From the IMG/VR virus record IMGVR_UViG_3300044629_000313, positions 1-41,159 of that record: a stretch of DNA of 41,159 nucleotides. The stretch is one strand, 5' to 3'. Source of the stretch: a virus. The notes below the pieces were generated by a model that saw nothing but the letters and a program-made list of their open reading frames with translations, searched no databases and was not told the origin of the DNA. Each line of letters begins with the position of its first letter. The first letter of the stretch is position 1. Below, piece after piece: positions 5,404-40,922 of the stretch. Made by a program: the position numbers and the translations under genes.

Positions 5404-7176
5404 ATGCCCACCGTACCGACCACGTTCGTCCCGCAGGTCGCGCCGCAGGCGCCGGGCGACATCGGCCAGTTCCAGGCGCCTGGCGTGCAGGCCGCCGAGA
5501 ACCTTGCCGGGCCGCAGCTCGCCCGCTTCGGGCAGGCGATGACCGGGGCAGGCAACGCCGCCTTCCGGCTGGGCTCCGCGATCCAGGACGGGATCGACGA
5601 TGCCACGACCAAGCAGGCCGACGTGATGGGCACGACGGCCATGCAGCGCGTGGCCGACCGCTTCCTCGGCACGGTCGGGCAGCAGTCCGAGCGCGACTTT
5701 GAGGCGGCGATGGGCGAGCTGTCGCAGGCCGGGTCGGCGGCGATGGACACGCTGAAGAACGACACGCAGCGTGCGATGTACGCGCCCATCCTCGCCCGGA
5801 ACATGGGGATGTTCCAGAGCCGGATGCAGCAGCACCGCAACGGCCAGGTGCGCGTCTGGAACACGAACGAGGCCATCGCACGCAGCGAGGTGAACGCCGA
5901 CAACGCCATCTTCTCCTGGGCAAGCCGCAACGAGAAGGATGCCGCCGGGCGCCCGGTCGGGATGCTCCGGTATGCCGCCTACGCCGACACGGCCGTGGAC
6001 GAGGCCCGCAAGGCCGGCGAACTCATGGGCTACGCGCCCGACTCGGCGCAGATGAAGCAGCTCGAGCAGAAGGTCCACGACCGGATGGCGAAGGGCATCG
6101 TGGATTCCATGCTCGTCAACGGCGAGTATGCCGCCGCCGACGAGTTCTTGTCCGACCCGGACACGCAGGAAATGCTCGACGCCAGGGCGGCGCAGGCGCT
6201 GCGCGAGAGCGTGATGACCAACCAGCAGCGCGCCGTCATCGGCGAGCTCACGGCAAGCATCAAGGAAACGGGCACGCTTTACGCCAAGAGCGATCCGAAT
6301 ACCTACGGGCAGGAGGCGACCGAGGGCGCCGAGCCGCCGGCCACGCTGCGCGATGCGCTCGAGCGCGCCGAGTCGATCAAGGACGATGACGTCCGCAAGG
6401 CGGTGCAGGCGCAGCTCAGGACGCAGTACGCGCAGGACGAGGCGCTCAGGACGCAGGAATACCGCGCCCTGATCGACGCCTACGAGAACCACATGGCGGT
6501 GCCAGGCAACTCCATGTTCAACCTGCCGCCGGCGCTCGAAAGCCAGATGGCCGCACTGAGCCCGAAGGACCGACAGTCGTTCTACGCGCAGCAGCGCGAG
6601 TCTGACGAGATCGGCGTGCAGGAGGAGCTGGCGCGCAACCCGGCAATGCTTACCCGCGAGTGGCTCGAACGCAACCGCACGAAGATGACGCCAGGCACCT
6701 ACGTCAAGCTGCTCGGTGAACTCAACCAGCCCGAGAAGATCATTGAGGCGCAGGTCGACGCGGATGACATCAACCGCCAACTCACGGACATGGGCATGCC
6801 GCAGTACGTCAACGCACCTCGTGGATCGACCGACGCGCAGCGCCACCTGATCTTCCGAAACAACATCACGCAGATGATCGAGATTCGCCAGCGGGAGCGT
6901 GGCGGGAAGATCAGCCCAGACGAAAAGCGCGACATCATCCGCAAGGCCATCGTGGACGAGGCATACGTTTCCATCTCATGGGCGAGAGATCCAAGAATTC
7001 CAGTCGCCATGATGACGCAGGAGGAGCTCGGGAAGGCGTACTACGACATCGGTGACCAGGAAGTGCCATTCGCGCAGTACCGCATGGCCGAGCAGCAACT
7101 CATGCGCGCCGGCATCGCGTCCCCGACAGAGGCGCAGATCCTTGAATACTGGACCCGGAAGGGCAAGCCGAAGTGA
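5404..7176 (+). CDS. Internal virion (ejection) protein, T7 gp15-like
   Basis: This 590-aa, largely alpha-helical, charged protein sits between the gp14-like and gp16-like genes. An N-terminal Pro/Gln linker (residues 1-45) precedes helical repeats (about 60-480) rich in Gln, Asp and Arg with no membrane segment and no enzymatic motif. In T7-like phages the gp15 equivalent assembles a periplasmic tunnel with gp16. The start is 3 nt after the previous stop. The end overlaps the giant gene start by 4 nt (GTGA), so the two are translationally coupled. The role is inferred from position and composition. Confidence 0.75.
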   Translation: MPTVPTTFVPQVAPQAPGDIGQFQAPGVQAAENLAGPQLARFGQAMTGAGNAAFRLGSAIQDGIDDATTKQADVMGTTAMQRVADRFLGTVGQQSERDFEAAMGELSQAGSAAMDTLKNDTQRAMYAPILARNMGMFQSRMQQHRNGQVRVWNTNEAIARSEVNADNAIFSWASRNEKDAAGRPVGMLRYAAYADTAVDEARKAGELMGYAPDSAQMKQLEQKVHDRMAKGIVDSMLVNGEYAAADEFLSDPDTQEMLDARAAQALRESVMTNQQRAVIGELTASIKETGTLYAKSDPNTYGQEATEGAEPPATLRDALERAESIKDDDVRKAVQAQLRTQYAQDEALRTQEYRALIDAYENHMAVPGNSMFNLPPALESQMAALSPKDRQSFYAQQRESDEIGVQEELARNPAMLTREWLERNRTKMTPGTYVKLLGELNQPEKIIEAQVDADDINRQLTDMGMPQYVNAPRGSTDAQRHLIFRNNITQMIEIRQRERGGKISPDEKRDIIRKAIVDEAYVSISWARDPRIPVAMMTQEELGKAYYDIGDQEVPFAQYRMAEQQLMRAGIASPTEAQILEYWTRKGKPK

Positions 7177-10100
7177 TCGAGCCGGACATCAACGAGCGCA
7201 TGGCACGATTCTCGCCCTCGCAGGTCCAGGACGATGTCGACCCGATTGCGTCCGAGATCGCGTCACGTGCCGCCGTCCCGACGTCACAGCCGACGATGGC
7301 GATGCCAGACGTCGATCCCATCGCCCGCCAGATCGCGGAGAACGACCGCGAATCGCTCGACGCCGCCGTGCTCGGCGCCCGGGCCGTCAACCCGGACGAG
7401 GCCGCACGCGCCATTCAGGTGGGACGGAAGGTAGGCATCCCGGCCGAGGTGGCCCGTGCGGACATGCAGCGAGCCGAGCAGCAGGCGTACCTCACGGACC
7501 TGCGCTCAAAGGACTTCCTCCGCACCGACCCGGTCATGGCGAACTTCCTCGCCAACAAGGAGTTCGCGGAGGTCGCGCATGATGACGTCGGCGTGCTGGA
7601 TGCCATCCGGCCCATCATGCAGGACTGGGCGATGGTGTACTGGACGGGTGCCACGCCGGGCATGCGCCGGGGCTTTGAGCGCGGCCAGCTCGGCGCCGAG
7701 CGCGGAGAGATCGGCGGCATGGCGATGGCTGGCCTGGCGCAGCCCAAGGACTTCGAGCGTGCGTCCAAGATCCGCGACCGCATGCGCGAGCTGGTGGACG
7801 TCGGGTTCCTGGGCGCGACCACCGAGGTCATCGCACAGAACCTTGCACAGATCCGAGGGATTGGCACGTTCACGGTCGGCGGCGCGGCGCTCGGCAGCGT
7901 GGTGCCCGTGGTCGGCACGGTTGCCGGCGGAGCGCTCGGCGCGACCGCAGGCGTGGTCGCCACGACCGGGCAGATGGAGGCCGGGAACCTGTACCTCGAC
8001 CTGCGCGAGGAGGGCGTCGAGGATGACGTCGCCATCCCGGTGTCCGTGGCCGGCGGGTTCCTGAACGGCGTGATCGAGGTGGTCGGCATGAAGATCGCCG
8101 CCAAGCCGTTCCAGGCGCTTGCCAAGCGCTTCATGGCTGAGGCGGTCGCCAAGGCCGTCGCGCAGCCCACGACACGCGCCGCGCTCGCCGCGGCCGGGAA
8201 GGGATACATCCTTCAGGTCGGGACCGGGGCCAGCGAGGAGGCGCTCCAAGAGGTGGTCATCATCGCCGGCGAGGAGATCGCCAAGGCGGCGTCCGGGATC
8301 GACAGCGAGACGGGCCTGCGGCAGGCCACCGAGCGCGTGGTGGACGCCTTCGTGCAGGGCGCGATGGGGTCGGCCATCCTGGGCGGCATCGGCCCGGGCG
8401 CGAACCTGTACGTCGATTTGAGCCGTGCGGCCAACACCGAGCGGCAGCAGGTGTTCTTTGAGAAGCTCGCCACGGCCGGCAAGGACAGCAGGCTCGCCAA
8501 GCGCAGCCCGGAGGCATACGAGCGGTTCCTCGAGGCGCAGGCGAAGGACGGCCCCGCCGAGACGATCTACGTGGACGGGCGCACGGCACAGGAGCTGTTC
8601 GCGCAGAGCGGCCTGACGGCGGCGCAGCTCGAGGAGGTGCTGCCCGGAATCAAGGCGCAGGTGGACGAAGCGGTCGCCACGGGCGGGGACGTGACGATCC
8701 AGACGGCGCAGTTCGGCGCTCGGCTCGCCAACACGGAACTCGGGAACGCGCTGCTGCCGCACATGCGCTTGTCGCCGGACGCCATGAGCGCCACCGAGGC
8801 GCAGGCGTTCGAGGCTGAACGGCAGGCAGTTGTGGAGGAGGCACGCACGATCCTTGCAGCAAAGCAGGAAGCCGACGCTGCGTTCGTCGCCGAGGCGCAG
8901 CAGGTCGAGGACGAGGCGTTTGAGCAGGTCCGTGCGGTCGGCCAGTTCACCGACATCGAGGCGCGGACGATTGCCAAGCTGCGCCAGGCGATGGTGGTCG
9001 TGGATGCCGCCGAAGCCGGGATGACGCCGGCGCAGTATCAGCGCGAGCGCGGCGTGCCGTTGGTCGTCCAAGGTGAAAAAACAAACGTACAAGCAGCGCA
9101 ATCTGCTGTTAAAAATGCAGAACTACAGGCACGCAGCAAGTTGTTTGGATGGTACGCACAGCGCGAACTAGCGAAGATTGCAGAATCAGAAGGAGTTGAT
9201 CTATCAACTCTGACTCGAGATCAATACGCGCAGTACGCGATTGATAATGGGCTGGCTATTGATGACGATCACCTTCGCATGGCCGCTGTACTCCGCAACG
9301 CCAAGACGATTGAAGAATATGCGTCCATGCGAAAGTCAATGCGTGCCGCAGCGAATCCAATGCAACAGCAGGCAGATGCCGAGTTTGCTGCATTCGCACA
9401 GCGCATCAAGAGAGATGCAACCGCAAGTACGACGATTTCACCTGGGGTTCGTATTCGCAGCGGAACAGCAAATAGCGATACCTGGCTATATTTCAAGGTA
9501 AACTCTGGCGCAACTACGACAGGGGAAACGCACAAGGCATACGCTGGTTTTGCTGATCCGTACAAGTCGCTTACTCAAAATCGTGTTGAGCAGTTTCTGC
9601 AATTCTTGCAGAGTCGTGGATACAACGGAGACGTTAAGACTATTCAGGACATTGACCAAGGTAGCGCGATTTCAGATCAGATTGTGATGCACGGAGCTAC
9701 CAAAGCGGATGCAGATTTGGCATTGCAGTTGTCGCAGGAGTTCTTTGGAAACGAACTGAACTTCCTTGAAACCGGAATGGACACGGACAGCGGTTCTTAC
9801 AGCCAGAATCTTGCTGAAAAAATTAAATCCGATATTGCTGCTAGAAATCAATCACAGCAAGCGCAGCAGCCAACCACTGCATTTGATCAGGCGGCTATCT
9901 CCCGCATGGACGCCGACTACCTCGCGGCGGTCGAGCGCGGCGACATGGAAGCGGCGCAGCGCATGGTGGACGAGGCGGCGAGGGCTGCAAATCAACAGAG
10001 AGTTACAAGATTTACGGTTGGTAACCGTGGTTTGCTAAATAATCAAGTCCTCAATTACGACAAATTGTCAGATGACGAAATGGCTGAAGTTGAGGTTCTG

Positions 10101-13100
10101 CTTCCTCTTGGTTTGCAGCAACCACGGGACGTACCTGCCAATGCGACATTCTTCTTCACCGACGAAGGATTGATTCGGCAAAATCGATTGATTGAGTTGT
10201 TGAAGAAAGCGGCGAAAGGTCGTGTGATAGAAACGACTGCTTATGTTCCAAATGATCCTGTATGGACATCAAACGATGGACAAGTTGCTGTGGTTCCGGA
10301 GCAGATCAAGTCTGCCAACCCCGTCACCTACGACGAGCAGGGCAACATCGTCCCGCTGTCGCGCCGCTTTGACATCACTAGCCCGAAGCTGTTTGAGCAG
10401 GCCGCCACTCTCAACGCCGATTACTTTACAGCCATTGAGCGCGGAGATACGGAAACCGTTCAAAGCATGATTGACGAAGCGGCTGAAAGACAGATGCCGT
10501 CCAGTCAAGTGCGCGATGCGGCAGGAAAACTGCTTCGCATCTACCACGGATCACAGAGAATTGATCGAGTCGGAAACCGTCTGCTGAAGAAGCGGGCCAC
10601 ATCCGGGCCGATGCCGTTCTTTACCGACACTCGTGCGATTGCAGAGGGTTATGCCCAAGGCAAGGAAGACACGAGCATTGAGAACATCGGATACGAGCAA
10701 TGGTTCAAGTACAAGCCACGCGGACAGCGAGGCACTGTCACTCTTGACCAAGCGTGGTTCTATCTCACGCCAGAAGAACGCGCTACTGCCACCGAACGTT
10801 TGTATACGGTTGGATACGAAAATCCCGACGAAGGAACCGGGGAAATCGTTGGCAATACCAAAACCATTGCGTCACGCGACCATGTGCAATTCTTGATTCG
10901 TCAGGCCAAGGGAAACGCGCTGACTGCTGCAAAGGAACTCTGGCTCAACAGCGGAAGCCTGTTCAACGACGAACAGAAGTTCATGGATGTCCTGAAGGGC
11001 ATGGGACTAGGAGAACGATTCGTTTACGACTCTCCTCATGCGGTCAATTCCGGAATCATTGAGGCATACGCCAACATCACGAATCCGCTCGATACATCTG
11101 CAATTCCGACATCAGTAGTTGATGCGCTTCAGAAGCGCGCAAATCGCGTGCGAAAGCCAGCAGATGAATACGGGCAAGATGCGTGGGACAAGCGGACTCG
11201 TGATCCGCAATCTTGGATGGAAACGCTCCGCTCCGACATCGCTGAAGGCCGGACGCAGGCATGGACTTCAATCCCGGATTGGGCGACCGATGTTCTGACA
11301 AAGCTTGGATATGACGGCATCAAGGACAGTGGTGGCAAGTATGGCGGCGATCCGCATGTCGTATGGATTCCATTCAATCCGCAGCAGATCAAGTTTGCCA
11401 ATCCAATCACAAAGGATGGTTCCGGGAAGATCATCCCGCTGTCAGAACGATTTGACCTGACATCTCCGATGATGTTCCGTCAGGCGGCACCCGGCCCAGC
11501 CCGCGGCGGATTCGACCCGCGCACTCTGAACGTCCTTGTCGGCAAGGGTGGCGATGTATCGACGCTCGCGCACGAACTGATCCACCTCCGTGTCGCCGAG
11601 TACCTACGCATGGCGCGTGGCACCACGCCGCCAGCGCGTGTGAACGCCGACCTCGAGACGCTGTTCGACTTCATGGGCGTGGAGGGCGCGACGTTCCAGG
11701 AGCGTCTCGACAACTACGAGACGATGACCATCGACCAGCGCAGGCCGCTGGAGGAGAAGGTCACCTACAACTTCGAGGTGTATCTGTACGAGGGCAAAGC
11801 ACCGAGCGTTGAGCTGCGCGGTGTGTTCGACCGCCTCGCCGCGTGGATGCGCCGCGTGTACAAGTCGATCCGCGATGACCTGAACGCGATCTACCGCCGC
11901 GAGTTCGGCACCGACCTGCCGATCCTCACGCCCGAAGTGCGCTCCGTGTTCGACCGCATGCTCGCATCCGAAGAGCAGATCAAGCGGCAGGAGGCCATCA
12001 GTGGAATGAAGGGTCTGTTCCAGACCCAGGCCGAGAGCGGCATGGGAGACGCTGAGTGGGCCGCGTACCAGGCCATGCAGCAGGAGGCTACGGATGCTGC
12101 CGTCACCGACCTGAACACCGCCAGCATGCGGCAACTCCAGTGGCTTGGGAACGCACGCGCTCGTATCCTGCGCGACCTTCAGAAGAAGCACGAAGCCAAG
12201 CGTAAGGAAGTCACTGCCGAGGTGGCCGCTACCGTCAGGCTCGAGCCCGTCTACCGTGCGATGACCTACCTACGCACCGGAAAGTTCGTGGACGCGGACG
12301 GGGCCGAGGTCGCCGTCGAAGGGCCGCATCGCCTTGACACCAAGCGCGTCAAGAAGCTCTACGAGACGGTCCCGACCGCCGCCTCGCTCGAGGCCGTGCG
12401 TGCGACCGGGATGCCGATGCCGGCGGTGATCGCCCCGGACATCGCCAAGCTCGGGACGGGCAAGGGCGGCATGATGGGCGTGGATGGACTCGACCCGGAC
12501 CTGGTGGCCGAGACGTTCGGCTACTCGAGCGGCGACGAGATGATCCGCGCCCTGATCGCGGCCCGCCCCATGAAGGAGATCGTGGCCGAGCGGACGGACG
12601 CCGAGATGCTGCGCCGCTTCGGAGACATGACGAGCCCGGAGGCCATCGAGGCCGAGGTGCAGGCGGCGCTCCACAACGAGGCCAGGGCGCGGTTCGTGGC
12701 CGTCGAGCTGCGCTACCTGTCCAAGGCGACCGAGCCGGCCCGGGTGATGGTCGACGCGGCCAAGCAGGTCGCCCGCGACCTGATCGCCGCCAAGCGGGTC
12801 CGAGACGTGCGCCCGAGCGACTTCGTGGCCGCCGAGGCCCGTGCCGCCCGTGACGCATCCCGCATCGGGTCGCCCGTGGACGCCGTGGCCGTTGGCCGTG
12901 CCGCCTATACCCGGACCTACAACGAGCGGATCGCGGCGGGGGCCGACGAGCTGACCGCCGTGGCCGAGGCCACCACGGCCAGCGTGGAGGCCGCCAGGAT
13001 GGCTCAGGAGCGCACGGAAGAGATCAAGGCGCGCTACGGGGCCGACCCGGAGCAGGCCCGCATACGGGCAAAGCGCGCCCAGCTCTACCAGAACCAGCTC

Positions 13101-15524
13101 GCCGCCGAGGCGCTCCGGGTCAAGGCCGAGGTGGACAAGCAGGTCAAGTACCTGCGGCGGGTGCTCAGAGACGAGAACGTCAAGCGCATGGGGGCGCAGG
13201 CGGCTGACCAGGTCGCCGGGCTCCTCGACCGCTTCGAGGTGGCCGCCGTCAGCCTGAAGCGCCTGGACGAGCGCAAGGCGCTGACCGACTGGCTCGCCGA
13301 GCAGGAGGCCGCAGGGCTGGTGCCGGACATCGCCCCGGAGATCGCCAACGAAGCCCGCCGCGTCAACTACCGCGAGATGAAGGTCAGTGAGTTCCGCGAC
13401 CTGGTGGACGCGGTGAAGCAGATTGAGTTCATCGGCAAGAACGAGCAGAAGCTGCGCCTGGCCGAGGAGCGCGCCGCGTTCGAGGAGAAGCGGGACGAGA
13501 TCGTCACGCGCATCCGCGCCGCCGGCAAGGTCCGCGGCCTGAGCCTCGACCCGCGCACGCCCCTGACCGGGATCGGCCGCGCCGCCGCGTTCCTGCGCGG
13601 GTTCGCCGCCCAGCACCTGAAGGCCGCGTCCATCGCCCGCGTCCTTGACGGCGGCAAGGAAGACGGCCCGCTCTGGAACGCCATCATCCGCACGGCCAAC
13701 GACGCCTCCGACATGGAAACCACCATGCGGGCCAAGGCGTCGCTCAGGCTGGGGGAGATCCTGAAGCCCGTGTTCGCCCTCGGTGGCATGGGTGGCAAGG
13801 GGATGCACTTCCCGTCCATCGGGCGCAGCCTGAACCGGGAGGCGCGGCTCGCCATCGCCCTGAACATGGGCAACGACGGCAACCGCCAGCGCCTGCTTGA
13901 CGGCGAGGGCTGGACGCTCGAGCAGATCCAGCCCGTGCTCGAGAGCCTGACCGAGGCCGAATGGCAGGCCGTGCAGCAGGTGTGGGACTTCATCGACGGC
14001 TACCGCCCGGAGATCGCCGCCAAGGAGCGCAGGCTCTACGGCAAGGAGCCGACCTGGGTGACGCCCGTCCCGTTCACCGTCCGCACGGTCGACGGCAAGG
14101 ATGTCAGCCTCCAGGGCGGCTACTACCCGATCAAGTACGACCCGGTGGCTTCCGACCGGGTGGCGACCGTGGACGCCGCCGAGGAGGCCAAGCGCGACCT
14201 GCAAGGCGCGTATACGGCGGCCACCACGCGTCGGTCGTTCGTCAAGGCACGCGCCAAGGAGGTCGTGGACAGGCCGATCCTGTACACGCTCGACGCCGCC
14301 TTCAGCGGGGTGAACGACGTGATCCACGACCTGTCGTGGCATGAGTGGCTCATCTCGACGAACCGCCTGCTGCGCGACGTCAAGTTCGCCAATGCCGTGC
14401 GCGAGACTCGCGGTCCTGAGTTCCTGAAGCAGCTGCGCGACTGGACGAAGGACAATGCGACCGGGGCACGCGGTCAGCAGGTCGCCGGCGAGTCGGTCCT
14501 GTCCTGGCTCAGGCAGGGCATCAGCGCGTCAGGCCTCGGCTTCAACATCAACAGCGCGGCGCTTCAGATCACGGGTTTCAACCAGAGCATCGTGCGGGTG
14601 GGCGCGAAGTACATCGGGCAGGGCATCACGCAGTTCGCGACCAGCCCGTTCGACTCGGCGAAGATGGTGGCCGACAAGAGCCAGTTCATGGCCGAGCGCG
14701 GCCGCACGCAGTTCCGCGAGATCAACGAGATCAAGAACCGTGTACGCGGACAGACAGAGATTTCGCGGCGGGTGTTCGCCGGCACCTACTTCCTGATGAT
14801 GAACATGCAGCGGTCAGTGGACATCCCGACCTGGCTCGGCGCGTACCAGAAGGCGCTCGACGCCGGGAAGAACGATGCCACGGCCGTGGCGCTCGCGGAC
14901 CAGGCGGTGCGCGACTCGCAGGGCAGCGGTCTCGTCTCTGACCTCGCGGCGGTCGAGCGCGGCGGGCCTGCCATGAAGCTGTTCACGGTGTTCTATTCGT
15001 ACATGAACACGGTCTACAACATGGCCGCCGTGCAGACGATGACGGCACGCGGCAGGGGGAAGCTGGCCGCCGACTACGCGATGCTGTTCGTGGTCCCGGT
15101 CGTGCTCGGTTACGCGATCAAGAGCCTGCTCCAGCCGAACACGGATGACGAGGAGTTCGATCCCGAGGCACTGGCACGCAAGCTCGCCGCCGAGGAGCTG
15201 TCGTACATGATGGGCACCATGATCATCGCACGCGAGTTTGGAGGCGCCGCGCAGCTCCTGACGGGCGCGGAAGGCGTCCGCATGGGCTACGGCGGCCCTG
15301 CCGGCCTGCGCGCCATCGGAGAGGTGTATGGCCTTGCCACGCAGGCTGGACAACTTGAGTTCGACCGCGCCTTCCGCCGCTCTGCGGTCAACACGCTCGG
15401 TGCGTTTACCGGGCTGCCGGCGGCGCAGATCAACCGCACCATCGACGGCATCGAGGCGGTGGTCGAGGGCGAGGTCGAGGGCGTCGGCGCGGTGGTCGCG
15501 CCGCTCACCGGAGTGCAGCGTTAG
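7173..15524 (+). CDS. Giant 2783-aa ejection/polyvalent protein with ART-like and HExxH domains
   Basis: This gene occupies the T7 gp16 position and is about twice the length of T7 gp16. Start is GTG at 7173 (GGAAGGG site upstream, GTGA overlap); an in-frame ATG at 7200 is the alternative. Order: helical N-terminus; hydrophobic Gly/Ala/Val segment at about 231-275; helical region to about 630; A/T-rich insert at about 634-1438; zinc-peptidase-like HELIH at 1467-1471 with a possible third ligand Glu near 1535; long helical/coiled region to about 2150; conserved C-terminal region with a membrane-type segment at about 2636-2655. The insert carries two cassettes, each opening with a DADYLAAVERGD-type linker and closing with an IKSANP...PLSRRFD block. 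The second has an ADP-ribosyltransferase-like core (IYHGS near 1123, FFTD near 1148, YDGI near 1379), as in PolyVal proteins. Enzyme activity is inferred. Confidence 0.82.
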   Translation: MIEPDINERMARFSPSQVQDDVDPIASEIASRAAVPTSQPTMAMPDVDPIARQIAENDRESLDAAVLGARAVNPDEAARAIQVGRKVGIPAEVARADMQRAEQQAYLTDLRSKDFLRTDPVMANFLANKEFAEVAHDDVGVLDAIRPIMQDWAMVYWTGATPGMRRGFERGQLGAERGEIGGMAMAGLAQPKDFERASKIRDRMRELVDVGFLGATTEVIAQNLAQIRGIGTFTVGGAALGSVVPVVGTVAGGALGATAGVVATTGQMEAGNLYLDLREEGVEDDVAIPVSVAGGFLNGVIEVVGMKIAAKPFQALAKRFMAEAVAKAVAQPTTRAALAAAGKGYILQVGTGASEEALQEVVIIAGEEIAKAASGIDSETGLRQATERVVDAFVQGAMGSAILGGIGPGANLYVDLSRAANTERQQVFFEKLATAGKDSRLAKRSPEAYERFLEAQAKDGPAETIYVDGRTAQELFAQSGLTAAQLEEVLPGIKAQVDEAVATGGDVTIQTAQFGARLANTELGNALLPHMRLSPDAMSATEAQAFEAERQAVVEEARTILAAKQEADAAFVAEAQQVEDEAFEQVRAVGQFTDIEARTIAKLRQAMVVVDAAEAGMTPAQYQRERGVPLVVQGEKTNVQAAQSAVKNAELQARSKLFGWYAQRELAKIAESEGVDLSTLTRDQYAQYAIDNGLAIDDDHLRMAAVLRNAKTIEEYASMRKSMRAAANPMQQQADAEFAAFAQRIKRDATASTTISPGVRIRSGTANSDTWLYFKVNSGATTTGETHKAYAGFADPYKSLTQNRVEQFLQFLQSRGYNGDVKTIQDIDQGSAISDQIVMHGATKADADLALQLSQEFFGNELNFLETGMDTDSGSYSQNLAEKIKSDIAARNQSQQAQQPTTAFDQAAISRMDADYLAAVERGDMEAAQRMVDEAARAANQQRVTRFTVGNRGLLNNQVLNYDKLSDDEMAEVEVLLPLGLQQPRDVPANATFFFTDEGLIRQNRLIELLKKAAKGRVIETTAYVPNDPVWTSNDGQVAVVPEQIKSANPVTYDEQGNIVPLSRRFDITSPKLFEQAATLNADYFTAIERGDTETVQSMIDEAAERQMPSSQVRDAAGKLLRIYHGSQRIDRVGNRLLKKRATSGPMPFFTDTRAIAEGYAQGKEDTSIENIGYEQWFKYKPRGQRGTVTLDQAWFYLTPEERATATERLYTVGYENPDEGTGEIVGNTKTIASRDHVQFLIRQAKGNALTAAKELWLNSGSLFNDEQKFMDVLKGMGLGERFVYDSPHAVNSGIIEAYANITNPLDTSAIPTSVVDALQKRANRVRKPADEYGQDAWDKRTRDPQSWMETLRSDIAEGRTQAWTSIPDWATDVLTKLGYDGIKDSGGKYGGDPHVVWIPFNPQQIKFANPITKDGSGKIIPLSERFDLTSPMMFRQAAPGPARGGFDPRTLNVLVGKGGDVSTLAHELIHLRVAEYLRMARGTTPPARVNADLETLFDFMGVEGATFQERLDNYETMTIDQRRPLEEKVTYNFEVYLYEGKAPSVELRGVFDRLAAWMRRVYKSIRDDLNAIYRREFGTDLPILTPEVRSVFDRMLASEEQIKRQEAISGMKGLFQTQAESGMGDAEWAAYQAMQQEATDAAVTDLNTASMRQLQWLGNARARILRDLQKKHEAKRKEVTAEVAATVRLEPVYRAMTYLRTGKFVDADGAEVAVEGPHRLDTKRVKKLYETVPTAASLEAVRATGMPMPAVIAPDIAKLGTGKGGMMGVDGLDPDLVAETFGYSSGDEMIRALIAARPMKEIVAERTDAEMLRRFGDMTSPEAIEAEVQAALHNEARARFVAVELRYLSKATEPARVMVDAAKQVARDLIAAKRVRDVRPSDFVAAEARAARDASRIGSPVDAVAVGRAAYTRTYNERIAAGADELTAVAEATTASVEAARMAQERTEEIKARYGADPEQARIRAKRAQLYQNQLAAEALRVKAEVDKQVKYLRRVLRDENVKRMGAQAADQVAGLLDRFEVAAVSLKRLDERKALTDWLAEQEAAGLVPDIAPEIANEARRVNYREMKVSEFRDLVDAVKQIEFIGKNEQKLRLAEERAAFEEKRDEIVTRIRAAGKVRGLSLDPRTPLTGIGRAAAFLRGFAAQHLKAASIARVLDGGKEDGPLWNAIIRTANDASDMETTMRAKASLRLGEILKPVFALGGMGGKGMHFPSIGRSLNREARLAIALNMGNDGNRQRLLDGEGWTLEQIQPVLESLTEAEWQAVQQVWDFIDGYRPEIAAKERRLYGKEPTWVTPVPFTVRTVDGKDVSLQGGYYPIKYDPVASDRVATVDAAEEAKRDLQGAYTAATTRRSFVKARAKEVVDRPILYTLDAAFSGVNDVIHDLSWHEWLISTNRLLRDVKFANAVRETRGPEFLKQLRDWTKDNATGARGQQVAGESVLSWLRQGISASGLGFNINSAALQITGFNQSIVRVGAKYIGQGITQFATSPFDSAKMVADKSQFMAERGRTQFREINEIKNRVRGQTEISRRVFAGTYFLMMNMQRSVDIPTWLGAYQKALDAGKNDATAVALADQAVRDSQGSGLVSDLAAVERGGPAMKLFTVFYSYMNTVYNMAAVQTMTARGRGKLAADYAMLFVVPVVLGYAIKSLLQPNTDDEEFDPEALARKLAAEELSYMMGTMIIAREFGGAAQLLTGAEGVRMGYGGPAGLRAIGEVYGLATQAGQLEFDRAFRRSAVNTLGAFTGLPAAQINRTIDGIEAVVEGEVEGVGAVVAPLTGVQR
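9072..11485 (+). other. A/T-rich cassette insert within the giant ejection-protein gene
   Basis: Base and codon use change abruptly at about 9072 (runs of AAA, TTG, GAT, ATT) and return to GC-rich codons at about 11485, without breaking the frame. Two GC-rich islands inside (about 9895-9990 and 10300-10410) coincide with shared cassette borders. The first segment (about residues 634-908) is unrecognised; its WLYFKVN and SDQIVMHG strands loosely recall HopA1-type effector folds, a weak suggestion. Cassette 1 spans about 9898-10405 and cassette 2 about 10408-11490. Confidence 0.75.
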
Positions 15525-31448: not shown

Positions 31449-31496
31449 TGTGACAAAGTCACCACACTTGTTGACAAGTGTCATCAGTTTGTCACA
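31449..31496. promoter_or_regulatory. Nested symmetric dyad
   Basis: TGTGACAAA (31449-31457), six bases, ACACTTGT (31464-31471), TG, ACAAGTGT (31474-31481), six bases, TTTGTCACA (31488-31496): inner and outer arms share one centre. Such a site suits a dimer-of-dimers regulator or an initiator protein. A consensus -35 TTGACA sits at its centre (31471-31476), but no matching -10 was found. Confidence 0.65.
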
Positions 31497-31510
31497 CGCC
31501 CGAAACGAAA

Positions 31511-31542
31511 CGCGGCCCGGGACTTGCGTCGACCAGGCCGCG
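31511..31542 (-). terminator. Intrinsic terminator of the 50-aa minus gene
   Basis: On the minus strand CGCGGCC pairs with GGCCGCG around an 18-nt loop and is followed by TTTCGTTTCG. It starts 16 nt after the stop of the 50-aa gene at 31558. The reverse of the U-rich tail (CGAAACGAAACG, 31501-31512) is repeated at 32892-32903. Confidence 0.7.
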
Positions 31543-31557: not shown

Positions 31558-31710
31558 TCAGGTCGCGACGCGCTCGGCGGCGACTTGCCGCTCTGCCTCG
31601 TCAGAGAGCCGCGCCTGACGCGGGAACCATACCCCGGAAACAGAACGACCGCAAGCGTGCTTGCGGCCGTCTGCGAATTTCGCTTGCATGCCCCGAGGGA
31701 TCGGTATCAT
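31558..31710 (-). CDS. 50-aa basic protein with own promoter and terminator
   Basis: This small gene encodes MIPIPRGMQAKFADGRKHAC and so on to QVAAERVAT. It is basic and contains GVWFPRQARLSDEAERQVAA, a short aromatic strand followed by a helix. An internal ATG (31689) could be the start. It is flanked by a promoter (31737-31764) and an intrinsic terminator (31511-31542) on the same strand, a layout that supports it being real. No ribosome site is evident. Function unknown; a small regulator or an anti-host peptide is possible. Confidence 0.5.
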   Translation of the reverse strand: MIPIPRGMQAKFADGRKHACGRSVSGVWFPRQARLSDEAERQVAAERVAT

Positions 31711-31736
31711 GCAGCCAGCTAATCCAATCCGGTCGC

Positions 31737-31764
31737 ATTGTACCGCAGGTGCCTTCAGGGGCAA
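31737..31764 (-). promoter_or_regulatory. Promoter of the 50-aa minus gene
   Basis: Minus strand TTGCCC (31764-31759), 16-nt spacer, TACAAT (31742-31737). The -10 is near consensus and the -35 moderate. It would start transcription about 20 nt before the ATG at 31710. Confidence 0.55.
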
Positions 31765-32007
31765 CAATGCCGCACGCAGCTCTCGGCGCGGTAGGGGAGC
31801 ATGGATGTAGACGCAGGGCATGACCCTATCCTGCGCCGCCCGAAAGGGTGCGCTCCCCGACGATGGCAGCGGCTGGCAGTCCTCCAGCGAAATGGTGAAA
31901 ATCGTCGCTACGACTGACAGCGCGGCTCCGTGTGGGCTGATCGTGGTGGCCCCCTTGCGGGGTCACGCCCTCTGCGCTCACCATGTGAACTGAAATCCGT
32001 GGTTCGG

Positions 32008-32151
32008 GGGGCGCGAAGCGCCCCGCAGAGTCCTGAGCGAAGCGAAGGACGGATCGGAATAATCCCTCCCCTGTCGCCGGCTCACCCCAGGCGCCGCGAG
32101 TGGAGCGAAGCGGAGCCGCAGGCGAAGCGCAGCGGAGCGCAGCGAGCGGCG
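32008..32151. repeat. GCGAAGC mini-hairpin cluster
   Basis: GCGAAGC occurs at 32013-32019, 32037-32043, 32105-32111 and 32122-32128. The first is the tip of a 7-bp stem with a GAA loop (32008-32024). The second is nested in GTCCT/AGGAC (32030-32034, 32046-32050). The last two lie inside a longer dyad CGCCGC/GCGGCG (32092-32097, 32146-32151). d(GCGAAGC) is known to fold into an unusually stable mini-hairpin, described in the phiX174/G4 origin region. Confidence 0.7.
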
Positions 32152-32175
32152 TCCTGACTGAATTCGTTCGCAGAC

Positions 32176-32204
32176 TTGCAGATTTCAATACGTGCGCGTA
32201 TAGT
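32176..32204 (+). promoter_or_regulatory. Sigma70 promoter of the 209-aa accessory gene
   Basis: TTGCAG (32176-32181), a 17-nt spacer and TATAGT (32199-32204) on the plus strand. Spacing is ideal. Transcription would start near 32211, 25 nt before the ATG, with an AAGGA ribosome site between. Confidence 0.8.
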
Positions 32205-32235
32205 GCCCGTGAACCCTCCACACGAAAGGACCCAC

Positions 32236-32865
32236 ATGAAGTGGTATCTGATGGCGTTCACGCGAGAAGTGCCTGAATACCTGCACGTTCACGTTCCAGG
32301 CATCCACGAATGGCTGCTTTCACAGTACGACCATTCGCTCCATGGGCACAAGATGGGCATCGACACGGCCGTGTTTGAAACGCTTGCCGAGCAGTGGTGG
32401 GCGCAGGAGTACGGCAAGTTCGGCAGCAGACAGCCTTTGCGACTCGAAGGCGGTTCATCATCCAGGATTCACGCCGGCTTCGTCAACATGCTGGAAATGG
32501 ACATGTCGATCATTCCCGAGCACAGGATGACCGAGATCAGCGCATCGCCTGGCAACAACGTGCTTGTGTGCAAGATGTGGCAACCACCGGAAGGCGCAAG
32601 CGAAGAAGGGCGCTGGCGAACGATCCACGCGATGTTGCAGTGCAACAATTTCAGCGAAGTCGATGGCAAATACATTGATTTCTACGCTGATTCCCGCGAA
32701 AAAATGCAAACACAGAATGAGATTCGCGCCAAGATGGATATTGACCAGACCCACCGCTTTTACGACGAGCTGAGAACCTACGTCCGGCGCGAGCACGGAC
32801 AGAAGATGCCGCCAGCGCATCGCGATGGATTTGAAGCCCCAACAGGCAAGAAGAAGAAGGCCTGA
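32236..32865 (+). CDS. Accessory protein with its own promoter (moron-like)
   Basis: This 209-aa protein begins MKWYLMAFTREVPEYLHVHV. Codon use is visibly less GC-rich than in the flanking genes, and a clear promoter and ribosome site precede it, the pattern of a recently gained, independently expressed gene. Segments: His-rich N-terminus (VPGIHEWLLSQYDHSLHGHK), WWAQEYGKFGSRQPL, EMDMSIIPEHRMTEI, a helical C-terminal third (REKMQTQNEIRAKMDIDQTH) and a Lys-rich tail (GKKKKA). No known domain; no TM or signal peptide. Confidence 0.72.
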   Translation: MKWYLMAFTREVPEYLHVHVPGIHEWLLSQYDHSLHGHKMGIDTAVFETLAEQWWAQEYGKFGSRQPLRLEGGSSSRIHAGFVNMLEMDMSIIPEHRMTEISASPGNNVLVCKMWQPPEGASEEGRWRTIHAMLQCNNFSEVDGKYIDFYADSREKMQTQNEIRAKMDIDQTHRFYDELRTYVRREHGQKMPPAHRDGFEAPTGKKKKA

Positions 32866-32925
32866 AGAAATCATCGTTTCCCACGCGCACGCGAAACGAA
32901 ACGAACGCTTTGTAGCATCGCCCGC

Positions 32926-33216
32926 ATGGCGGGAAAGCGAAAGCCACGGCACAACCCCGTACTCTTGGCCCAGTTCGGGGACTGCTTGCTGGGCATCATG
33001 TACCCCCGCCCCGACGAGGAGAACTGCATACCCGTCGCCGTATACAGCGCCGAGATGATCGCAGCCCGCCTGCGCGACAACGAGAACATGACGATGGCCG
33101 AGGCGCGCTGCTTCGTCACCGACCGCATCGAGCAGAACTACCTCGGGCCCGGCACCCCCAGGATCATCTGGCCGGCGACCGAGGAGGATTTCGGTGAAGT
33201 CATCACCTCGCAGTGA
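32926..33216 (+). CDS. Small protein of unknown function
   Basis: This 96-aa protein has a basic start (MAGKRKPRHNPVLLAQFGDC), a beta segment (CLLGIMYPRPDEENCIPVAV), a helix (SAEMIAARLRDNENMTMAEA) and an acidic end (ATEEDFGEVITSQ). No good ribosome site is seen; a TAGCAT box lies 10 nt upstream, so it may start near the 5' end of an mRNA. It is separated from the preceding gene by 60 nt containing the repeat CGAAACGAAACG (32892-32903). Not recognised. Confidence 0.6.
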   Translation: MAGKRKPRHNPVLLAQFGDCLLGIMYPRPDEENCIPVAVYSAEMIAARLRDNENMTMAEARCFVTDRIEQNYLGPGTPRIIWPATEEDFGEVITSQ

Positions 33217-33908: not shown

Positions 33909-34257
33909 CTCCCTCGTCAAGTGGATCTCCGAAGGCCGGCCCCTGCGCGAATGGTGCAGGATCGACGGAAACCCGCACTTCACGGCGGTTTACGACTGGA
34001 TGGACAAGGACCCGGATTTCGCCCTACGCATCGCACGCGCACGCGAAGATGGGCACGACATCATCGCCGACCAGTGCATGGCGCTGTCTGACATCCAGCC
34101 GCTTGACCAGGTCGAGGTGGCGTGGCGCCGGCTCCAGGTCGATACCCGCCTGAAGCTCCTCGCCAAGTGGAACCCGAAGAAGTACGGCGACCGCCAGCAC
34201 CTTGACCATGGCGGGAACATCGTCCTGAACGTCATCACTGGCGTCCCGGATGCCTGA
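33847..34257 (+). CDS. terS: Terminase small subunit
   Basis: The recognisable protein runs from GRPLGTTIPVPQDKADSLVK through GRPLREWCRIDGNPHFTAVY (HTH-type DNA-binding part), DWMDKDPDFALRIARAREDG, and the conserved end VEVAWRRLQVDTRLKLLAKW then NPKKYGDRQ. It recognises phage DNA and feeds it to the large subunit. I chose GTG 33847 (136 aa); an in-frame ATG at 33676 would add an unnatural Ser/Arg-rich stretch that is the shadow of the HTH gene. No strong ribosome site is seen, so the exact start is uncertain. It overlaps terL by 8 nt. Confidence 0.78.
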   Translation: MRRKVGRPLGTTIPVPQDKADSLVKWISEGRPLREWCRIDGNPHFTAVYDWMDKDPDFALRIARAREDGHDIIADQCMALSDIQPLDQVEVAWRRLQVDTRLKLLAKWNPKKYGDRQHLDHGGNIVLNVITGVPDA

Positions 34258-35575
34258 GACGATCCGGCTCGGATACGAGCCCAGGGCGTGGCAGCGCAAG
34301 TGCCACCTCGAGCGCCGCCGCTTCACCGTGCTCGCCCTGCACCGACGCGCCGGGAAGACCGAGCTGGCGCTCATGGAACTCATGCACCGGGCGGTCAAGT
34401 TCACCGACGAACTGGGGTTCTTCGTATACGTCGCCCCGTTCCTGAAGCAGGCGAAGGCCATTGCCTGGGCGCGCCTGAAGCAGAAGCTCGACCCGTTCAT
34501 CCGCTCGGCCGCCGTCGAGATCAACGAGGCCGACCTGGCCGTCACGTTCAAGCACAATAAGGCCACGATCCGCCTGTTCGGCGGCGACAACCCTGACGCC
34601 CTCCGCGGCGTTCGACTCGACGGCTGCGTCATCGACGAGGTCGCGCAGATCAAGCCAGAGGTCTGGAACGACATCCTCCAGCCGGCCCTCTCCGACCGCA
34701 AGGGATGGGCCATGTTCATCGGCACCCCCGCCGGGATCAACCTGTTCAGCGAGCTGTTCTACCGGGCTGGCTCCTTGCCCGACTGGTATGCGGCGAGGTA
34801 CACGGTCCACGACACGGACGCGCTCGACGCCGAGGAGGTCGCCCGCCTCCAGCGCGACATGCCCGAGCAGGCGTTCGCACGCGAGTACCTCTGCGACTTC
34901 AGCGCCGCCGGCGATGACCAGCTCATCAGCCTGTCCGAGGCAGACGCCGCCGCCAGCCGCCGCTACCCGGACGGGGATGTCCTCGAGTTCCCGCTGGTGA
35001 TCGGCGTCGACCCGGCCCGGTTCGGGGATGACCGCAGCGTCATCGTCCTGCGCCAGGGACTGCGGATGGAAGACCCGGTCATCCGGCAGGGGATCGACAA
35101 CATGAACCTCGCGGCCATCGTCGCCAGCCTCATCGAGGACCGCGACCCGGACGCCGTGTTCATCGACGCAGGCGCCGGCTCAGGCGTCATCGACCGCCTG
35201 CGCCAGCTCGGCTACGAGGTCACCGAGGTGCCCTTCGGCGGCAAGGCCACGTTCCCCAACCTGTTCGTGAACAAGCGCACCGAGATGTGGTGGGCCGTCA
35301 AGGAATGGCTCGAGAACGGCGGCAGCATCCCGCAGGACACCACCCTGAAGCAGGAACTGTCCACCCCGATGTACTGGTACGACGCGGTCGGCAAGCGCGT
35401 CCTCGAGTCGAAGGATGACATCAAGAAGCGCCTCCAGGGCGGCGGCAGCCCGGACATCGCCGACGCCCTCGCGCTCACCTTCGCCTACCCGGTCGCCAAG
35501 ATGCTGCCTCGCGAGGTGCGCGAGCGGCTCGACCCGAAGCCCAAGGAGTACGACCCGTACTCCGAGATGCGGTGA
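34250..35575 (+). CDS. terL: Terminase large subunit
   Basis: This 441-aa packaging motor has an ATPase domain with Walker A HRRAGKT (31-37), Walker B CVIDE (126-130) and a coupling IGTPAG motif (158-162), and a C-terminal RNase H-like nuclease with acidic residues in GVDPARFGDD (Asp254), VFIDAGAG (Asp306) and SPDIADALALTF (Asp402/405). It packages DNA into proheads and cuts it. The length is typical for podophages of this type. The 8-nt overlap with terS is normal. Its TGA stop contains the first base of the AGTACCCGTAA motif. Confidence 0.93.
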   Translation: MPETIRLGYEPRAWQRKCHLERRRFTVLALHRRAGKTELALMELMHRAVKFTDELGFFVYVAPFLKQAKAIAWARLKQKLDPFIRSAAVEINEADLAVTFKHNKATIRLFGGDNPDALRGVRLDGCVIDEVAQIKPEVWNDILQPALSDRKGWAMFIGTPAGINLFSELFYRAGSLPDWYAARYTVHDTDALDAEEVARLQRDMPEQAFAREYLCDFSAAGDDQLISLSEADAAASRRYPDGDVLEFPLVIGVDPARFGDDRSVIVLRQGLRMEDPVIRQGIDNMNLAAIVASLIEDRDPDAVFIDAGAGSGVIDRLRQLGYEVTEVPFGGKATFPNLFVNKRTEMWWAVKEWLENGGSIPQDTTLKQELSTPMYWYDAVGKRVLESKDDIKKRLQGGGSPDIADALALTFAYPVAKMLPREVRERLDPKPKEYDPYSEMR

Positions 35576-36546: not shown

Positions 36547-38265
36547 GTGAGCCAGTACGTCGGCGACGGCCAGAGCTACGAGGATGCGCCCACGCGGGAC
36601 AAGCTGTTCACCCGCTGGGGCCAGCTCAAGTCAGAGCGTGCGTCCTGGTACGCGCACTGGCAGGAACTCACGTCCTACATCCTGCCGCGCAACGGCCGCT
36701 ACTTCCGCCAGGACCGGGACAAGGGCTGGCGCCGCCACAACAACATCTACGACAACACCGGGACGCGGGCGCTCCGCACGCTCGGCGCCGGCATGATGTC
36801 GGGCGCCACGAGCCCGGCCCGCCAGTGGTTCCGGCTCGCCACGCCCGACCCTGAACTGAACTCCTTCGACCCGGTCAAGCTGTGGCTCGATGACGTCACT
36901 AAGCGCATGCAGCGCGTGTTCCAGAAGTCGAACACCTACCGCTCGCTGCACATGATGTACGAGGAGCTCGGCACCTTCGGCACCGCAGCGTCCATCGTGC
37001 TCCCGGACTACGAGCAGGTCATCCACCACTACCCGCTCACCTGCGGCGAGTACTGCATCTCGACCGACGCGAAGGGCCGGGTCTGCACGCTTTACCGCGA
37101 GTTTGACATGACGGTGTCGCAGATCGTCAAGGAGTTCGGCCTCGAGAACTGCTCCGTCACCGTGCGGAACATGTATTCGAACGGCACCCTCGACCAGTGG
37201 GTGCCCGTGATCCACGCCATCGAGCCGCGTGCAGACCGCGACATGGGAAAGCGCGACTCGCGCAACATGCCCTACGGGTCGTGGTACTTCGAGGTCGGCG
37301 GCGAGGACGGGAAGTTCCTGCGCGAGAGCGGGTTCATGCAGTTCCCGGCGCTCGTCCCCCGCTGGGCCGTGGTCGGCGGCGACATCTACGGCCACAGCCC
37401 GGGCATGGAGGCGCTCGGCGACGTCAAGCAGCTCCAGCACGAGCAGCTCCGCAAGGCGCAGGCCATCGACTACCAGACGAAGCCGCCCCTCCAGGTGCCG
37501 GCGTCGATGAAGAACCGAGACATCGAGATGCTCCCGGGCGGGATCTCCTACTACGACGGCGCGGCCAACAACGGGATCAAGACCGCGTTCGAGGTGAACC
37601 TCAACCTCCAGTACCTCCTGAACGACATCATGGACTGCCGCGAGCGCGTGCGGGGCGCGTTCTACGCGGACCTGTTCCTGATGCTCGCCAACGCCGGCCC
37701 GAACACGCGGATGACCGCAACCGAGGTCGCAGAGCGCCACGAGGAGAAGCTCATCATGCTCGGCCCCGTGCTCGAGCGCCTGCACAACGAGCTGCTCGCC
37801 CCGCTTGTCGACACGACCTTCACCCGCATGGTGCAGGCCGGGATCGTCCCGCCTGCGCCGCAGGAATTGCAGGGAATGGACCTGAACATCGAGTTCGTGT
37901 CCATGCTGGCGCAGGCGCAGCGCGCCATCGGAACGAACGCCGTCGACCGCTTCGTCGGGAACCTCGGCGCCATCGCGCAGATGAAGCCCGACATCCTCGA
38001 CAAGTTCGACCAGGACGAGTGGGCCGACGTGTATGCCGACATGCTCGGCATCGACCCGGCGCTCATCATCGCGGACAAGGACGTCGCGCTCATCCGCCAG
38101 GCGCGGGCGCAGGCGATGGCCGCGAAGGAGCAGGCGGCCGTCATGCAGCAACAGTCGCAGACGGTCAAGAACATGGCGCAGTCGCCGACAGGCGGCGCAA
38201 ACGCCCTCACCGACATCACGAACATGTTCTCGGGGTATGGCTCCCCGAGCCCGGTGGAGCTCTGA
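36547..38265 (+). CDS. Portal (head-to-tail connecting) protein
   Basis: This 572-aa protein belongs to the Head-tail_con family: LKSERASWYAHWQELTSYIL then RNGRYF, ARQWFRLATPDPELN, and the wing and stem with YGHSPGMEALGDVKQLQHEQ, ending in a Gln-rich crown helix (MAAKEQAAVMQQQSQTVKNM). Twelve copies form the DNA channel at one capsid vertex. Start is GTG, directly after the preceding TGA and without gap. Length is typical. It is followed within 1 nt by a virion-protein gene. Confidence 0.93.
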   Translation: MSQYVGDGQSYEDAPTRDKLFTRWGQLKSERASWYAHWQELTSYILPRNGRYFRQDRDKGWRRHNNIYDNTGTRALRTLGAGMMSGATSPARQWFRLATPDPELNSFDPVKLWLDDVTKRMQRVFQKSNTYRSLHMMYEELGTFGTAASIVLPDYEQVIHHYPLTCGEYCISTDAKGRVCTLYREFDMTVSQIVKEFGLENCSVTVRNMYSNGTLDQWVPVIHAIEPRADRDMGKRDSRNMPYGSWYFEVGGEDGKFLRESGFMQFPALVPRWAVVGGDIYGHSPGMEALGDVKQLQHEQLRKAQAIDYQTKPPLQVPASMKNRDIEMLPGGISYYDGAANNGIKTAFEVNLNLQYLLNDIMDCRERVRGAFYADLFLMLANAGPNTRMTATEVAERHEEKLIMLGPVLERLHNELLAPLVDTTFTRMVQAGIVPPAPQELQGMDLNIEFVSMLAQAQRAIGTNAVDRFVGNLGAIAQMKPDILDKFDQDEWADVYADMLGIDPALIIADKDVALIRQARAQAMAAKEQAAVMQQQSQTVKNMAQSPTGGANALTDITNMFSGYGSPSPVEL

Positions 38266-39884: not shown

Positions 39885-40922
39885 ATGGCAACTCTCTCCA
39901 CTTCCAACCTGACCCTCGCGGACTGGGCCAAGCGCACCGATCCCGAGGGCAACGTGCCCATCATCGCCGAGCTCCTGTCGCAGTCGAACGAGATCCTCGA
40001 GGACTGCGTCTTCAAGGAGGGCAACCTCCCGACCGGCGAGCGCGTCGTGATCCGCACCGGCCTGCCCCAGGTCTACTGGCGCGCCCTCAACCAGGGCATC
40101 CCGAACAGCAAGTCGACGACCGCCCAGGTCGACGAGGCCTGCGGCATCCTCGAGGCCCGCAGCGAGGTCGACAAGGACCTCGCCATGCTGAACGGCAACA
40201 CCGCGCAGTTCCGGCTGTCTGAGGACACCGCCTTCCTCGAGGCGATGAACCAGACGATGGCGAGCACGATGTTCTACGGCAACCCGGCGACCGACCCGAA
40301 GCAGTTCCTAGGGCTGGCCCCGCGCTACTCGGCGCTCACGGGTTCCAACAACAGCGTGAACATCCTCAACGGCCTCGCCGGCGGCGGCTCGTACTCGGGC
40401 ACCGCGAACACCTCGGTGTACCTGGTGGTCTGGGGCGACAACACCGTCTACTGCCCCTTCCCCAAGGGCTCGACGGCTGGCCTCATGCACGAGGATCTCG
40501 GCGAGCAGACCGTCTACAACTCGGACGGCACGCGGCTCCAGGCGTACTCCACGCGCTACCAGTGGAAGAACGGCCTGGTCGTGAAGGACTGGCGCTACGT
40601 CGTGCGCATCTGCAACATCAACACGACCGACCTGCTCGCGCAGTCGAACGGCCAGGCGACCACCTCGGCCAGCAACCTCATCCGCCTCATGGCGCGTGGC
40701 CTGTACCGCATCCCGAACATGGCGATGGGCCGTGCCGCGTTCTACATGAACCGGACCGTGCACAGCGGCCTGTCGATCATGGCGCTCGACAAGAGCCAGG
40801 CGGTCGTCAAGGTGAACGAGGGCCTGTCGCAGTTCGGCACGCCGTACAGCTGGCTGTCGTTCCTCGGCGTCCCCTGCCGTCGCGTCGATTCCATCCTCAA
40901 CACCGAAGCCGAAGTCAGCTGA
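39885..40922 (+). CDS. Major capsid protein (epsilon15 gp7-like)
   Basis: This 345-aa HK97-fold coat protein has diagnostic blocks of the epsilon15 gp7 family: LTLADWAKRTDPEGNVPIIA, ELLSQSNEILEDCVFKEGNL then PTGERVVIRTGLPQVYWR, LNGNTAQFRLSEDTAFLEAM then NQTMASTMFYGN, and QYQWKNGLVVKDWRYVVRI-like C-terminal strands ending FLGVPCRRVDSILNTEAEV. The AAGGGA site and high GC-codon bias suit strong expression. The cement gene follows 30 nt later and a strong hairpin (685-715 on the circle) comes after that. Confidence 0.95.
   Translation: MATLSTSNLTLADWAKRTDPEGNVPIIAELLSQSNEILEDCVFKEGNLPTGERVVIRTGLPQVYWRALNQGIPNSKSTTAQVDEACGILEARSEVDKDLAMLNGNTAQFRLSEDTAFLEAMNQTMASTMFYGNPATDPKQFLGLAPRYSALTGSNNSVNILNGLAGGGSYSGTANTSVYLVVWGDNTVYCPFPKGSTAGLMHEDLGEQTVYNSDGTRLQAYSTRYQWKNGLVVKDWRYVVRICNINTTDLLAQSNGQATTSASNLIRLMARGLYRIPNMAMGRAAFYMNRTVHSGLSIMALDKSQAVVKVNEGLSQFGTPYSWLSFLGVPCRRVDSILNTEAEVS

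Follow-up and report, generated by a model that had tools for sequence, protein, structure and literature searches.

A conserved structured RNA alternates with initiator genes in a putative phage replication slot and may, with an adjoining hairpin, form a host-dependent origin

We found that a cluster of GCGAAGC hairpins in a phage genome lies directly downstream of a conserved structured RNA that had been missed when the sequence was first read, and that this RNA, rather than the hairpins, is the conserved part of the locus. The RNA occupies a slot that carries an initiator gene in relatives; the two are mutually exclusive, and one has replaced the other repeatedly. In our best reading the hairpins form the 3′ portion of a replication cassette built around the RNA. 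The RNA and the larger hairpin, H3, could together be a host-dependent origin that replaces initiator and loader, with the smaller hairpins H1 and H2 as REP-like passengers, an account that we place just short of an even chance. We also propose, tentatively and at somewhat below an even chance, that the structured RNA functionally replaces the initiator and the DNA hairpin tract the helicase loader, such that host enzymes alone start replication and sister phages exchange the protein and RNA versions.

The window, by which we mean the whole 41,159-base virus record that was analysed, contains a podovirus-type gene set that includes the following.

from 735 onward: tail proteins
7173-15524: giant virion-type polyvalent protein of 2783 aa with LPD22 and ART-PolyVal domains
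34250-35575: terminase
36547-38265: head-tail adaptor
39885-40922: major head protein
minus strand: RecT-like protein
minus strand: RusA
minus strand: Gam-like protein
minus strand: cytosine methylase

GC content dips locally to about 0.52 at 9-11 kb, within the giant polyvalent protein. A 48-nt near-palindrome of the TGTGACAAAGTCACC...GTTTGTCACA type is located at 31449-31496 between divergent gene blocks and is probably an operator/promoter region. The ends of records G002 and G016 overlap by 127 bases, so that both look like complete circular assemblies; no such overlap was present in the window.

Eighty terminase relatives were kept for comparison. The replacement slot runs from a shared left border, which ends near position 31637, to a conserved gene at 32926. 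The locus holds the following features, of which the first palindrome and both promoters were recognised from sequence only.

31650-31665, no strand assigned: terminator-like palindrome CGCAAGC-GT-GCTTGCG just 5′ of the RNA promoter
31684-31710, + strand: sigma-70-like promoter, TTGCAT-N15-TATCAT
31712-31998, + strand: conserved structured RNA of about 290 nt, ends approximate, identified by covariation (alignment A1 covers 31707-31998)
32008-32024, + strand: H1, perfect 7-bp hairpin GGGGCGC-GAA-GCGCCCC, from sequence and folding
32013-32019, 32037-32043, 32105-32111 and 32122-32128, all + strand: GCGAAGC copies
32030-32050, + strand: H2, REP-like hairpin GTCCT-GA-GC-GAA-GC-GA-AGGAC, from sequence and genome copies
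32092-32151, + strand: H3, (GCGNA)n hairpin with the tip GCC-GCA-GGC at 32115-32123, from its presence downstream of the RNA in 18 distinct sequences
32153-32157, + strand: CCTGA, left end of a segment missing in close relatives
32176-32204, + strand: promoter-like TTGCAG-N17-TATAGT of the inserted gene
32236-32865, + strand: inserted accessory gene of 209 aa, no Pfam or PHROG match
32861-32865, + strand: CCTGA, right end of the same segment, overlapping the stop codon
32926-33216, + strand: conserved right-border gene of 96 aa, matching phrog_13182 (function unknown; E 2.6e-5)

The direct repeat CGAAACGAAACG, present at 31503-31514 and 32893-32904, flanks the entire slot and could be a recombination handle.

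Close relatives without the RNA carry in this slot a DUF1376 gene that matches a PHROG primosomal protein (E 2.5e-12); the alternative gene found in RNA-less slots is of the HTH_36 type and matches a PHROG replication initiation protein (E 7.6e-9). Judged from these gene matches, the slot is the phage replication module, and since its position is taken by an initiator gene in relatives, the location supports the idea of a replication function. We collected 71 distinct slots, of which 8 were too short to class. Among the remaining 63, the RNA occurred without an initiator in 51 and an initiator without the RNA in 12, with none carrying both and none carrying neither, in a sample enriched for RNA-bearing slots because loci were found largely via one exact 16-mer. 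This exclusion gave a Fisher value of 3.7e-13, kinship ignored. The pattern extended beyond the slot: in record-wide scans phrog_9327 was found in 0 of 16 RNA records vs 4 of 5 others, the fifth being L070 with its truncated slot, and PF13730 was likewise found in 0 of the 16. A terminase tree of 51 rows showed ten changes of the RNA label, at least five of them forced by starred branches, and near-identical terminases occurred with either the RNA or the protein version. One-slot exclusion of this kind could also reflect cassette swapping without functional equivalence.

The original prediction noted that no phage replication enzymes were evident. The slot of the window has neither an initiator gene nor the loader-like gene, and a search of the window and 20 related records gave no DnaB-type helicase. 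The two phage records closest in terminase lacked the RNA, and each had a gene annotated 'replicative helicase'.

Part of the slot is a variable addition. Five loci (L005, L010, L012, L015 and L032) lack window positions 32158-32860, such that 32157 joins 32861 at CCTGA. The accessory gene within this segment has diverged relatives in other slots and belongs to a family that is variable among relatives. Highly variable accessory proteins beginning M[SNK]WY were also seen in many RNA-adjacent slots (e.g., L029:4076-4822 and L117:1900-2568).

Positions 31560-32000 (approximately), and above all 31697-31998, retained about 78-85% identity in distant relatives, vs mostly 66-77% in the flanks. Iterated BLAST identified the RNA in 89 of 173 loci, representing 52 distinct sequences including that of the window. 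The 16-mer stretch is invariant in the RNA loci retrieved with it because it was used for retrieval. Alignment A1 consists of 47 of the 52 RNAs; L105, L072, L115, L154 and L133 were excluded as partial or very diverged. RNAalifold predicted 69 pairs in A1, with 99.3% of cells paired; in controls with the partner displaced by 1-3 columns, pairing fell to 39-51%. Double changes were found in 14 pairs and 93 cells, compared with 7.6 and 27.3 in shuffled alignments, none of 500 being as high. No reading frame was open in more than 19 of the 47 rows and most indels were of 1 or 2 bases; thus the RNA is non-coding, and the claim that the hairpins lie in a non-coding stretch was borne out as far as the comparison reaches. 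Rfam 15 gave no match at gathering score in the window, the sole hit being SNORD23 below threshold on the other strand. The RNA itself had no match among 50,697 phage records and none in the plasmid search, and a strict RNA pattern was found 0 times in bacterial genome contigs. Whatever its function, the RNA defines a structured family with good support, found on many phage contigs and unmatched in Rfam 15.

In 44 of 46 distinct upstream sequences the RNA was preceded by paired −35-like and −10-like elements that conform, with variants, to TTGCAT-N15-18-TATSAT; a generic promoter scan did not list the promoter at 31684-31710, which has 8 of 12 matches. Palindromes of other sequence occupy the place of the 31650-31665 palindrome in relatives. 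The −35/−10 spacer (31690-31704 in the window, and in relatives) often contains a small clade-specific palindrome such as GCGAC..GTCGC or GCACC..GGTGC, which is possibly an operator.

The d(GCGAAGC) sequence forms an exceptionally stable mini-hairpin reported at the phiX174/G4 origin region, and four clustered copies had been reported here as a possible origin or primer site. The clustering is real. The densest 116-nt stretch of the + strand contains 4 GCGAAGC copies, whereas at least 3 were seen in 0 of 500 dinucleotide-preserving shuffles of the whole window; when region 31990-32170 was shuffled alone, 4 copies appeared in 0 of 5000. For the degenerate GCGNAGC the best cluster was 7, compared with a maximum of 4 in 500 shuffles. 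Across the whole window the heptamer was not enriched (13 matches vs 14.4 expected on both strands), and the 181-nt region as a whole showed no more stable folding than its shuffles (z −0.51 as DNA and 0.17 as RNA). Of the two copies described as lying at the tips of perfect dyads, one does so: H1 is a perfect 7-bp dyad that folds well by itself, with only 4 of 200 shuffles as good, whereas H2 is imperfect: five pairs are followed by a tandem G.A/A.G mismatch and then by two G-C pairs that close a GAA loop. The remaining two copies are in H3, a larger imperfect hairpin of overlapping GCGNA units. Thus the cluster is composite, combining the REP-like H2 with H3 as a separate (GCGNA)n hairpin.

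H2 is a widespread REP-like repeat. Its core is repeated in bacterial genomes of many groups, with more than 116 stretches among the genome contig matches listed. In 12 genomes, picked because each held an H2 match, we counted 1341 copies of the core vs 0 for the reversed pattern, up to 486 of them in Reyranella sp. CPCC 100927. Forward and reverse counts were near-equal in these genomes, and the copies pair in opposed orientation, often 55-60 nt apart. When the loop was left open in the search of the same H2-selected genomes, 85% of 1576 matches had a GNA loop and 235 (15%) did not. The distribution of H2 is patchy: 2 of 100 sampled genomes carried any copy, and one of these two was a centre chosen for its hit. 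In place of the CGTC tag the window reads AGAGTC, while L023 and L134 read CGTC. In the plasmid search, two Streptomyces plasmid records matched the H1/H2 area over a short length near their ends.

H3 behaved differently, and the host-like repeat named as the other option for the cluster applies to H2. Searching 398 genomes of one phylum identified the H3 core at 34 places in 28 genomes, vs 24 for the reversed control, and a longer H3 pattern was found in 0 of the 12 genomes chosen for holding H2; by genome copy number H3 is not REP-like. Eighteen distinct sequences carried it downstream of the RNA. The window-type H3 pairs in a different register from the common type, and alignment A4 left out the 4 window-type rows; in the 14 sequences of the common type, both-sided changes were present in four stem pairs (7 cells). 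The RNA, an ATATGG motif and H3 also occur together in L095, L115, L327 and L328, loci whose RNAs are diverged and in which neither a related terminase nor a related border gene is present. The tip module of H3 was observed inside another GC-rich stem at L324:8013-8035 (− strand) and L330:4668-4690 (+ strand), with no RNA detected in either locus. H1 and H2 vary between near relatives, being present in L134 and missing from L149; an H3-like hairpin is present in L096 and missing from L107. The GNA loops fit DNA mini-hairpins and are compatible with DNA or RNA function alike.

A gene of about 150 aa often follows the initiator or the RNA in the slot. It had no match in Pfam, no PDB sequence match and no useful PHROG match, the four weak PHROG hits being without function. 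Its AlphaFold model (mean pLDDT 82, pTM 0.46) matched best to lambda P bound to DnaB (Z 6.5) and to DnaD (Z 6.1), with the next match at 3.7; these Z values, which lie below the level that the tool advises for helical proteins, are suggestive of a resemblance in fold to the lambda loader P. All 12 RNA-less slots and 29 of the 51 RNA slots contained this loader-like gene, which is absent from the window. Within 210 nt 3′ of the RNA, all 22 loader-less RNA slots, the window included, had at least 3 GCGNAGC copies, vs 8 of the 29 with the loader-like gene. L134, in which H1 and H2 occur together with the loader-like gene, was counted as hairpin-less because it has 2 GCGNAGC copies and the threshold was 3. 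Independent contrasts on the terminase tree were 4 of 4 concordant in most pairings (p 0.125, not significant), and the RNA tree gave just 1 loader/hairpin contrast on starred branches. L042, with the gene and no hairpin, and L110, with the hairpin and no gene, carry sister RNAs.

Cumulative GC skew had been suggested as a check on an origin at the cluster, and it did not place one there: the minimum of the detrended skew was near 5.5 kb, about 15 kb from the cluster, and the maximum near 32.6 kb. A much similar curve was obtained for G016, which lacks the RNA, and we rejected skew as an origin marker since the pattern is alike with and without the RNA. By eye, the RNA locus showed no obvious AT-rich stretch suited to unwinding. 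The predicted host-primed origin at this site is thus partly upheld, by a slot that appears to be a replication module, by the missing initiator and loader, and by the tract in every loader-less RNA slot; the skew minimum elsewhere and the REP-like nature of H2 tell against it.

Given the favourable location, a skew that does not mark the site and the T4 precedent cited below, we rate the RNA with H3 as an origin at the level stated above, and put the chance of the main rival, that all GCGNAGC hairpins are passengers, only a little lower. According to this alternative they are REP-like or (GCGNA)n palindromes that at most protect the RNA 3′ end and have no role in replication, although the RNA itself may matter. 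The abundance of the H2 core in genomes, its opposed pairs, and the gain and loss of hairpins between near relatives are what such passengers would produce. H3 fits this explanation poorly, as its core occurs at close to the background level in 398 genomes, its stem has changed on both sides and it accompanies the RNA into unrelated phages; the GCGNAGC tract in all 22 loader-less RNA slots likewise argues against it.

It is unlikely that the RNA is instead regulatory or trans-acting, as a long leader, decoy or sponge, in a phage that replicates with an undetected initiator or purely by recombination. The RecT-like, RusA and Gam-like genes would suit recombination-dependent replication, and a leader is possible because the RNA lies upstream of same-strand genes, but the genes 3′ of it are too variable for a specific leader. 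Exact alternation of the RNA with initiator genes at one site, and the finding of neither initiator family in 16 RNA records, also weigh against this explanation. The promoter hairpins of phage N4 carry GNA-type loops, and the hairpins here could by analogy be single-strand promoters of a virion RNA polymerase. We regard this as highly improbable: in a scan of the giant protein, with small ORFs covered in part, the only giant virion-type protein (7173-15524) was polyvalent, with LPD22 and ART domains and no polymerase match, and N4-type promoters were disfavoured on that ground.

If the RNA and H3 do form an origin, host RNA polymerase would make the RNA, which would stay hybridised to its template or be processed there and prime leading-strand synthesis by host polymerase, in the manner of ColE1 RNAII and of T4 R-loop origins. 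H3 would be extruded on the exposed or displaced strand, and host factors may load DnaB at H3, taking over the job of the loader. H1 and H2 would have arrived as REP-like elements in the spacer of the clade to which the window belongs, where they would at most help protect the RNA 3′ end. Such a system would be a natural example of RNA and protein substituting for each other at the start of DNA replication, an essential step, among phages whose terminases are near-identical, and would provide a small testable cassette of about 450 bases. We found no report of an RNA replacing a phage initiator in the open-licence literature, including the accessible text of PMC12306157, which is no proof of absence.

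Several known systems resemble parts of this locus. Like REP elements, H2 is a short palindrome with high copy number in some genomes, often in opposed pairs; the core of H3 differs from them in not being high-copy. CGTC-tagged REPs, as described in the accessible part of PMC3733652, have a stem of 8-9 bp with A-T first pairs, a loop of 4-5 and a terminal CGTC tag, whereas H2 has 5 + 2 pairs, a 3-nt GNA loop and no A-T first pairs. The phiX174/G4 mini-hairpin and the present hairpins have the heptamer in common, together with its unusual stability (the accessible part of PMC10527192 includes a table that lists a 2-bp 'extraordinarily stable hairpin' at 76.5 C); here, unlike phiX174/G4, several hairpins adjoin a structured RNA in a double-stranded phage. 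The lambda O-P module is matched in slot position, in the order of initiator then loader and, in the relatives, by a gene with O-like/primosomal PHROG matches and another whose modelled fold appears P-like. All 12 RNA-less slots hold the O-like initiator and the slot of the window lacks it, such that, in contrast to lambda, the RNA stands in the place of O and, in the window, the hairpin tract in the place of P. At ColE1-type origins the RNAII pre-primer forms a persistent RNA-DNA hybrid that is cut by RNase H, with no initiator gene on the replicon. Phage T4 provides a phage precedent for RNA-primed initiation at R-loop origins, according to the accessible part of PMC3016281. Searches of Rfam and of plasmids with the RNA described here revealed no sequence kinship to these systems. 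The likeness consists in a slot without a dedicated initiator protein and a structured RNA, driven by a promoter identified by its motifs, at the presumed origin.
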